Assembly (NCBI RefSeq): GCF_017983445.1
Contig: NZ_JAGOBJ010000002.1
Location: 124,001-188,000 of the forward strand
Reading direction: 5' to 3'
DNA: 64,000 nt
Source of the DNA: Halomonas sp.
GTDB taxonomy: Bacteria; Pseudomonadota; Gammaproteobacteria; Pseudomonadales; Halomonadaceae
Part shown: positions 46,784 to 48,097 of the stretch, piece after piece
Layout: each line of letters starts with the position of its first letter
Numbering within the stretch: position 1 is the first letter of the stretch
Program-made: the position numbers and the translations under genes
Notes under the pieces: model-generated
What the model saw: only the letters and a program-made list of their open reading frames with translations
Told to the model about the DNA's origin: nothing
Databases searched by the model: none

Positions 46784-46800
46784 TTGCTGCATCGCAGCAA
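46784..46800. promoter_or_regulatory. TTGCTGC-N3-GCAGCAA inverted repeat before small protein A
   Basis: Perfect 7-bp arms around ATC. A TATACT at 46809-46814 could be the -10 element of the promoter of small protein A, so the repeat would cover the -35 area and suit an operator. Confidence 0.5.
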
Positions 46801-46845
46801 ATACCCGCTATACTTTATCGGATGTCCTACCAGGAGGATCGCACA

Positions 46846-46959
46846 ATGGCTTTCCCGCTATTTCCTACTCCCTACGATGGCGATGTACTGCATTTCTGGA
46901 AGCTCCAAGCGTTATGTCAGCGAGCCGCTATGAAGGCTCTGGAAGAGCATCTAGGTTAA
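46846..46959 (+). CDS. Small protein A, 37 residues, unknown function
   Basis: ATG 46846 is preceded by a consensus AGGAGG (46832-46837) at 8-nt spacing, so I choose it over the longer frame from 46714. The protein has a Pro/aromatic-rich N-terminus and a helix-like C-terminus with FWKLQALCQRAAMKALEEH. Small protein B (47256-47378) aligns without gaps from the Asp before the Trp: shared W, AL, QRAA and A. A strong hairpin terminator follows within 25 bp of the stop. Short helical proteins of this kind may bind a membrane, a granule or a partner protein, but I do not recognise a named family. Confidence 0.75.
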   Translation: MAFPLFPTPYDGDVLHFWKLQALCQRAAMKALEEHLG

Positions 46960-46983
46960 ACCCTTGGTTTTAGACATGATGCG

Positions 46984-47030
46984 AAAAAAAATCAGACACG
47001 CTAAAGCTTTTTCTGGCGTGTTTGATTTTT
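46984..47030 (+). terminator. Terminator after small protein A
   Basis: AAATCAGACACGC pairs with GCGTGTTTGATTT (one mismatch) across a 17-nt loop and is followed by T. The A-rich left arm makes it bidirectional. Confidence 0.82.
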
Positions 47031-47056
47031 ATAAAAAGCTTTCTTCATTCAAGGAT

Positions 47057-47097
47057 GTAAGCAATTGCCGATTAATTTTGTAAGCAATTGCTTACAA
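47057..47097. promoter_or_regulatory. Double operator: half site plus perfect 20-bp palindrome
   Basis: TTGTAAGCAATTGCTTACAA (47078-47097) is fully self-complementary. The 12-bp sequence GTAAGCAATTGC also occurs at 47057-47068, exactly 23 bp earlier, about two helical turns. Perfect palindromes of this length are typical of TetR- or LacI-type dimers. The regulator is not encoded nearby. Confidence 0.7.
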
Positions 47098-47174
47098 TCA
47101 ATCGTCATTTACCTACGTCTTTTGGCTAGCTATGCGCAAAAAAAGCGCCTACCATCTAGTTTCGCAAGCCAATG

Positions 47175-47219
47175 TTGCGATGCACAACAGAATGTTGTTA
47201 TAAAATGTCGTTATAACAA
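47175..47219 (+). promoter_or_regulatory. Promoter and overlapping operator of small protein B
   Basis: Candidate -35 TTGCGA (47175-47180) and -10 TATAAA (47199-47204) are 18 bp apart. The -10 is embedded in a perfect inverted repeat TTGTTATAA-N7-TTATAACAA (47195-47219). A protein bound there would block transcription initiation. Confidence 0.65.
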
Positions 47220-47255
47220 AAATATTGAATAAATCACTCAAAAGGAGTGCATGCC

Positions 47256-47378
47256 ATGCAACACTCAGTAACTCAATATCCGGCAATCAGCGCCGACATC
47301 ATGGAAGTATGGGCGCAACGTGCTCTGAAGCAGCGCGCAGCGTTTGAGGCCATTGCAGCCTATATGTGCAAGCGTTGA
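47256..47378 (+). CDS. Small protein B, 40 residues, unknown function, paralogue of small protein A
   Basis: I translated this directly: MQHSVTQYPAISADIMEV, then WAQRALKQRAAFEAIAAY and the end MCKR. AAGGAG (47242-47247) lies 8 nt before ATG 47256. Against small protein A, the last ~24 residues align without gaps with D, W, A-L, QRAA and A identical and several conservative changes. A perfect hairpin terminator follows. The complete cassette (operator, promoter, ribosome site, short frame, terminator) argues for a real gene although it is very short. Confidence 0.72.
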   Translation: MQHSVTQYPAISADIMEVWAQRALKQRAAFEAIAAYMCKR

Positions 47379-47413
47379 GCGTTTACCGTTATTTGTACTC
47401 GTTTGCCTAAAGC

Positions 47414-47445
47414 TAACGCCTCATATGTCGAGGCGTTATTATTTT
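47414..47445 (+). terminator. Terminator after small protein B
   Basis: TAACGCCTC / GAGGCGTTA is a perfect 9-bp stem with a 7-nt loop, followed by TTATTTT. It lies between small protein B and the convergent speG. Confidence 0.85.
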
Positions 47446-47479: not shown

Positions 47480-48028
47480 TTACGCACTATTTTTTAAGCT
47501 TGAATTGCTTTCAAGCTCATTCAGGTAGGTCTCTTGCAAAATATACATGCGTTTTACATCGCGATATTTGCCATTGATAAAGAACTCCTGCACTAGGTGC
47601 CCTTCCTCAATAAACCCGCTCTCTTCATAAAGGTGGATCGCCTTGATGTTTTCCACTGCCACGATCAAATACACCTTATGTACATTCAAAATGGTAAACG
47701 AGTAGTGCAGCGCCTGGCGTATCAATGAGCGTGCAAATCCTTTGCCCTGATGATCAGGAGTAATAATAATTTGAAATTCAGCGCTGCGATGGATGTAGTC
47801 AATTTCGATTAACTCAACCAAACCAATGGCGATGCCTGAACTGTCCTCGGCCACAAAGCGCCGCTCGGCATTATCGTGGATATGCTTGTTGTAAAGTTCT
47901 TCCAGCTCATCAAAGGATTCGTACGGCTCTTCAAACCAGTACGACATGATGCTTTGATTATTATTTAATTCATGCACAAAGCGCAGATCGCTACGCTCCA
48001 GCGCACGCAAGTAAAGCCTATGACTCAT
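47480..48028 (-). CDS. speG: Spermidine N1-acetyltransferase
   Basis: 182 residues from ATG 48028. It follows E. coli SpeG closely as I recall it: LRALERSDLRFVHELNNN, MSYWFEEPYESFDELEELY, KHIHDNAERRFV, EFQIIITPDHQGKGFARSL (acetyl-CoA loop Q/G-x-G-x-G/A) and HEFF-like QEFFINGKYRDVKRM. It transfers acetyl from acetyl-CoA to spermidine or spermine, relieving polyamine stress. The upstream ATG at 48046 is less likely because GAGAG is better placed for 48028. It lies 69 bp after an amine-oxidase-like FAD enzyme gene read in the same direction. Confidence 0.92.
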   Translation of the reverse strand: MSHRLYLRALERSDLRFVHELNNNQSIMSYWFEEPYESFDELEELYNKHIHDNAERRFVAEDSSGIAIGLVELIEIDYIHRSAEFQIIITPDHQGKGFARSLIRQALHYSFTILNVHKVYLIVAVENIKAIHLYEESGFIEEGHLVQEFFINGKYRDVKRMYILQETYLNELESNSSLKNSA

Positions 48029-48097
48029 TATTACTACTCTCGTCATGTAATGGCGCGTGTATGGGGCTACCAGATATAGAGTAGCCCAATGGGTATT

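Follow-up and report, generated by a model that had tools for sequence, protein, structure and literature searches.

Two very short genes, P1 and P2, lie in tandem within the window, the 64,000-nt stretch of Halomonas sp. DNA analysed here (Table 1). Both reading frames, each preceded by a near-consensus ribosome-binding site, are found exactly where an earlier note on this DNA had placed them, and the hairpin terminators that it described after the two genes each fold better than all of 200 shuffled sequences (z = −4.96 for P1 and −4.00 for P2). The pattern scan for terminators detected only that of P2, since the hairpin of P1 has a loop of 10 nt; the latter hairpin may act bidirectionally. 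Terminator-like hairpins are common in the family, being found 3' of 49 of the 57 family genes of Vreelandella (formerly Halomonas), compared with 22 of 285 shuffled sequences. The −10-like hexamer after the P1 operator is kept, as TATACT, TATAAT, TACAAT or TACACT, in most of the P1-type genes displayed; a generic sigma-70 scan did not report the TATACT hexamer of P1.

Table 1. Genes and signals of the P1–P2 locus, in window coordinates.
Feature	Position	Strand	Description
PhaR-type operator of P1	46784..46800	.	TTGCTGCATCGCAGCAA; fits the PhaR palindrome of R. eutropha, YTKNTGCRNYGCANMAR, exactly
P1 −10-like hexamer	46809..46814	+	TATACT; 8 nt 3' of the operator, which overlies the −35 region
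P1 ribosome-binding site	46832..46837	+	AGGAGG; 8 nt 5' of ATG; GGAGG-like in orthologues
P1 gene	46846..46959	+	37 aa, MAFPLFPTPYDGDVLHFWKLQALCQRAAMKALEEHLG
P1 terminator hairpin	46987..47030	.	17 pairs, 10-nt loop, followed by a T-rich run
Palindrome	47080..47095		GTAAGCAATTGCTTAC; between P1 and P2; perfect palindrome, with a further half-site 23 nt 5' of it
Weaker PhaR-type operator of P2	47172..47188	.	ATGTTGCGATGCACAAC; 2 mismatches to consensus
P2 ribosome-binding site	47242..47247	+	AAGGAG; 8 nt 5' of ATG
P2 gene	47256..47378	+	40 aa, MQHSVTQYPAISADIMEVWAQRALKQRAAFEAIAAYMCKR
P2 terminator hairpin	47414..47438	+	pattern scan, and folding compared with shuffled sequences
GNAT acetyltransferase gene	47480-48046	-	adjoins P2; conserved as a neighbour of the pair in most loci of Vreelandella

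P1 and P2 are genuine tandem paralogues. As the earlier note had described, they align without gaps, with 9 of 26 aligned residues identical (E = 3e-6 for that single comparison), and their profiles align with a probability of 97.9%. A search of 58 related genomes at E ≤ 1, one of the checks proposed in the note, gave matches to P1 in 37 and to P2 in 31 of them, nearly all from the same genus. The best orthologues outside the source genome had E-values of 1.2e-11 (P1) and 6.6e-19 (P2), and in the near relative G022 P2 is 88% identical. No stop codons were seen in the orthologous P1 matches of the same genus, among those listed down to E of about 0.4. The tandem arrangement, with 258–368 nt between the genes, is found in 24 of 36 loci (stretches from 34 other genomes and from the source genome itself). 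The synonymous/non-synonymous comparison, likewise proposed earlier, gave a median pS of 0.56 and a median pN of 0.14 over 150 pairs, with pN < pS in 149 of them; the members of each pair are orthologues or paralogues of the same length with 60 to <100% identity, and the pairs are non-independent. Judged by these substitution patterns, both frames are under purifying selection, with mostly synonymous codon changes. That the pair is more than chance, as the note had held, is supported by the E-values of the orthologues, the recurrent tandem and the consistent excess of pS over pN, and conservation in relatives extends across Vreelandella and, more distantly, to other Halomonadaceae. We regard it as practically certain that P1 and P2 are real protein genes.

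A 28-member alignment used as the query matched 151 of 275 Halomonadaceae genomes at E ≤ 0.01, among them 74 of 82 genomes of Vreelandella. Among 293 genomes of the order, there was no convincing match outside Halomonadaceae: 23 genomes outside the family gave E-values between 0.0044 and 0.1, and the ten hits inspected were frames of other genes or chance-like. Among 369 genomes of the class, the only match outside Halomonadaceae (G811, E = 5.7e-4) was inside a 447-codon frame in which the motif was not recognisable on reading, and it was rejected. In a genome from another family of the order, a 35-aa frame (G047:C201:2158-2226) resembles the first half of P1; it is a partial match, with E = 0.0097 in the search of the 58 relatives and 9.5e-6 to the profile in a small set, and was missed by the family-alignment search of the 293 genomes. 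For the comparison of upstream regions, start codons of the family genes were picked by the score of the ribosome-binding site, and one frame of 98 (L059) was left out because no start was found 5' of its motif; the 40 genes taken from other genera are the best-scoring matches rather than a random sample. Two of these 40 distant loci, L193 and L222, have two family motifs within a single reading frame, a natural duplication that results in a protein of 86–92 residues, with a PhaR-type operator in front.

The earlier note knew of no named family with this motif, and searches of P1, P2 and the 28 family members against Pfam and NCBIfam agree with it: no family fits P1 or P2, and the phasin models of both collections gave no hits up to E = 1 among the 28 members. 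The Pfam candidates AAA_lid_3 (PF17862; 17.4 bits against a curated cut-off of 27.2, in one of 28 members) and Nup85 (score below cut-off) were rejected. There were no matches in Rfam (searched with the window), PHROGs or the PDB sequences, nor in plasmids and phages searched with P2, and no paper on such a microprotein family was found in the open-access literature as judged by titles and the openings of abstracts. AlphaFold2 predicts a single helix in each protein, spanning residues 9–36 of P1 (mean pLDDT 84.7) and 7–39 of P2 (mean pLDDT 84.2), with a loose N-terminus. The helix carries the motif E/D-V-L/M-x-x-W-x-x-x-A-x-x-Q-R-A-A-x-D/E-A-x-A-A-Y-L. Among 89 distinct 24-residue cores, the W and the V or I at position 2 are present in all 89 and the A at position 10 in 88, and the QRAA block is highly conserved. 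The note had raised an amphipathic protein as a possibility, which the hydrophobic moments do not bear out: they are not significant for P1 (p = 0.17) or P2 (p = 0.64), reach p < 0.05 in just 12.5% of 96 members, and are not significant when averaged by column (p = 0.13); the same is true of the conservation moment (p = 0.30). An amphipathic helix was accordingly dropped as a line of proof.

The earlier note recognised a palindrome upstream of P1 but missed its identity. It is an exact fit to the PhaR consensus deduced for the phasin genes of R. eutropha, as given in the excerpt of PMC12849132; PhaR is a repressor that granules of polyhydroxyalkanoate (PHA) sequester. It also shares a core, TG[N]TGC[N]3GCA, with the PhbF site that was footprinted in H. 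seropedicae, TG[N]TGC[N]3GCAA (PMC3206438, excerpt); the final A of that site is a G in the window and an A in many orthologues. The counts given here rest on the published consensus. In the source genome, searched in its entirety (3.9 Mb), the exact consensus occurs at three places and the reversed pattern, used as a control, at none. One of the three is before P1, another before phaP–phaC and the third inside a 636-codon open frame; the phaP in question matches TIGR02809 and PF09361 and adjoins a class I PHA synthase gene. Sites with ≤ 2 mismatches within 140 bp upstream were found in all 32 P1-type genes, invariably 59–63 nt from the start, in 20 of 25 P2-type genes (24 of 25 at ≤ 3 mismatches) and in 27 of the 40 genes from other genera, compared with 17 of 847 control regions. 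The controls stand before long frames of these loci that were picked mechanically, so that some of the frames are not genes. The phaP genes of 17 of 19 Vreelandella genomes also have the consensus, with ≤ 2 mismatches, within 180 bp upstream, an independent sign that the PhaR of Vreelandella uses such a site. The phaP genes of L240 (G024) and L248 (G030) are without such a site, though PhaR and PhaC are both present.

With a consensus palindrome at the promoter and a phaR gene in the genome (a single TIGR01848 match, E = 4.1e-34), P1 and P2 can be assigned on sequence grounds to the PhaR regulon; PhaR would bind at their operators and repress them, and control by PhaR appears highly probable to us. 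Each gene does have a regulatory cassette of its own, as the note had stated, but the operators are not private, since P1 and P2 have variants of a single operator, which also stands before phaP–phaC. The palindromic operators that it had mentioned hold up in the case of P1, whose palindrome is real and conserved, and of P2, which has a weaker copy. The palindrome GTAAGCAATTGCTTAC, which is more conspicuous, is present, whole or as a half, in 3 of 20 loci, the window's own included; it is therefore not a general part of the pair and was rejected as the key operator, and it may be an operator for a further factor, or chance.

At ≤ 2 mismatches, a site is lacking in five of the 25 P2 genes and in 13 of the 40 taken from other genera, and the latter figure indicates that PhaR control is not universal in the family. 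Nine of these 13 distant genes have a common upstream element containing GCATGATGTT, which probably points to a promoter of another type or to another regulator; some members of the family may thus be under different control. The nine loci without the PhaR-type site (L201, L202, L205, L208, L209, L210, L212, L214 and L216) have this element as a common block of the form AAAGTTTCG...TGATGAAATGTCGA...GCATGATGTT.

The phyletic distribution of the family follows that of the PHA storage genes. Among the 275 Halomonadaceae genomes, 236 encode PhaC (TIGR01838) and 234 encode PhaR (TIGR01848). All 151 family-positive genomes encode class I PhaC and 150 of them encode PhaR, the exception being G146, which is 72% complete; the family is absent from all 39 PhaC-less genomes, and 85 of the 236 PhaC-positive genomes are without it. 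In Vreelandella, the family is found in 74 of 77 PhaC-positive and none of the five PhaC-negative genomes. The p-values for co-occurrence across whole genomes are uncorrected for relatedness: in an rpoB tree built from 27 rows, the five form a single clade (100/100) nested within the genus. In this clade PhaC, PhaR and the family have all been lost, the genomes are small and the neighbouring acetyltransferase gene is also missing (at E ≤ 1e-40). The co-loss therefore counts only once and may have been part of a reduction of the genome. Two of the three PhaC-positive Vreelandella genomes without the family are incomplete (66% and 88%), and the third, G256, which is very near G022, has PhaC but lacks both the pair and the neighbouring acetyltransferase gene. 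Neither the window nor the compared loci have pha genes next to the pair.

We propose that P1 and P2 may represent a new Halomonadaceae family of microproteins, 35–45 residues long and consisting of one helix, that belongs to the PhaR regulon of PHA storage. According to the published model, in the excerpt of PMC12849132, phasin genes stay repressed by PhaR until nascent PHA attracts the repressor, and the same logic would free P1 and P2 during PHA synthesis. When PHA is absent, PhaR would occupy the palindrome that covers the −35 region, blocking P1 and, less tightly, P2; once PHA is forming, PhaR would be drawn to the granule and off the DNA, and the microproteins would be made along with the phasin PhaP. 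The conserved helix would then most likely attach to the granule surface or to PhaP, PhaC or PhaR, as a mini-granule protein. The best reading, namely PhaR-controlled PHA-storage microproteins whose conserved helix sits on the granule surface or its proteins, seems to us probable; it builds on what can be read from the sequences, that is, the genes and the purifying selection on them, the conserved operator and the co-occurrence with PhaC and PhaR. Binding to granules or granule proteins is putative and appears the most economical option because of the regulon, the co-occurrence and the fact that a helix of this length can suffice for granule binding in an engineered phasin fragment (PMC7267194); we consider the chances of such physical association to be about even. 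The earlier suggestion of a small amphipathic protein that binds a membrane, storage granule or regulator was in the right area, as operator, regulon and co-occurrence point to PHA storage, save for the amphipathic character. A more specific version of the preferred reading is offered tentatively, at somewhat below even chances: P1 and P2 would be natural one-helix 'mini-phasins' of 35–45 residues, released by PhaR and encoded in tandem in Vreelandella, with two-motif versions in some Halomonas, that form a so far unseen layer of the granule coat or directly modulate PHA synthase.

Given the weak amphipathicity and the strict conservation of W and QRAA, the helix may instead have a protein partner, and for this reason we claim that P1 and P2 work like phasin-regulon microproteins, not that they are phasins. 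They could accordingly be small regulators whose helix docks on PhaC, PhaP or PhaR and tunes PHA synthesis, for example as an anti-repressor or an activity modulator, which we consider unlikely but worth weighing. The very small size and the one-helix prediction are consistent with such a role, the invariant W (89 of 89 cores) and the conserved QRAA exceed the needs of a lipid-like surface, and the weak hydrophobic moment suits a specific protein partner. The partner is, however, purely putative, the pair has no pha neighbours in the window or the compared loci, and the double-motif proteins of L193 and L222 fit multivalent binding to a surface equally well.

The operator alone is no proof of a granule role either, as the PhaR of S. 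meliloti controls much beyond PHA, including exopolysaccharide genes (PMC12542648, excerpt). A looser pattern, TGCTGCNNNGCANNA, occurs at 24 places in the source genome, many of them within frames; the intergenic-looking sites are by the gene for a second phasin and at C7:500289 (gltA/sdhC, for citrate synthase/succinate dehydrogenase), C14:322665 (malic enzyme), C12:137674 (phosphate-binding-type protein), C16:132615 (DUF3141 protein) and C9:25069 (PhaP6-like protein, below cut-off). A wider PhaR regulon in Halomonadaceae is possible. P1 and P2 might then belong to a broader carbon-overflow response under PhaR and act away from the granule, on the membrane, a transporter or central metabolism, an explanation that we hold to be improbable. 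It would accord with the sites by gltA/sdhC, malic enzyme and the phosphate-binding-type protein, with the non-PHA targets in S. meliloti (PMC12542648, excerpt) and with the other upstream block common to nine of the 13 operator-less distant genes, but sits poorly with the restriction of the family to PhaC genomes (151 of 151) and with the exactness of the P1 site, which is matched at only two other places in the genome, one of them before phaP–phaC. That the transcripts work mainly as small RNAs with incidental frames is very improbable: the transcript units are about 170–250 nt long, with their own promoter-like region and terminator, and the PhaR of S. meliloti does control the sRNA MmgR (PMC12542648, excerpt), but pN is far below pS, the start, ribosome-binding site and motif are conserved, and the window has no Rfam match.

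P1 and P2 are thus probably overlooked small parts of the plastic-storage machinery. If the PhaR regulon is confirmed to include a family of conserved microproteins, this would provide a new handle on granule number, granule size and PHA yield, could supply very short tags for granules and would suggest that inventories of granule-associated proteins miss small proteins. The 'mini-phasin' version, if true, would concern the main halophilic producers of bioplastic. The operator itself offers a testable PhaR site for Halomonadaceae.

The closest parallels are with three known systems. The PhaR regulon of alpha- and betaproteobacteria (PhaR/PhbF/AniA) resembles the present one in the operator consensus, its overlap with the promoter and the presence of a PhaR gene, while the published targets, as far as a partial survey covered them, include no microprotein of the P1/P2 kind. 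MinP is a tag derived from part of the phasin PhaF; it has been shortened by 67% relative to BioF, its parent, and still attaches to PHA granules (PMC7267194, excerpt). Like P1 and P2 it is short and helical, and it illustrates that a short segment suffices for holding on to the granule, but it is engineered and has a WLAGLGI motif that P1 and P2 are without. Finally, the phasins proper (PhaP; PF09361 Phasin_2, TIGR02809 phasin_3, NF045536 PhaP6) differ from P1 and P2 in length (105–124 aa in the three phasin-like proteins of this genome versus 37–40 aa), and P1 and P2 are unlike them in matching no phasin model and in having no significant amphipathicity; the two groups are nevertheless alike in being small and predicted to be helical, in co-occurring with PhaC and in standing behind a PhaR-type operator.
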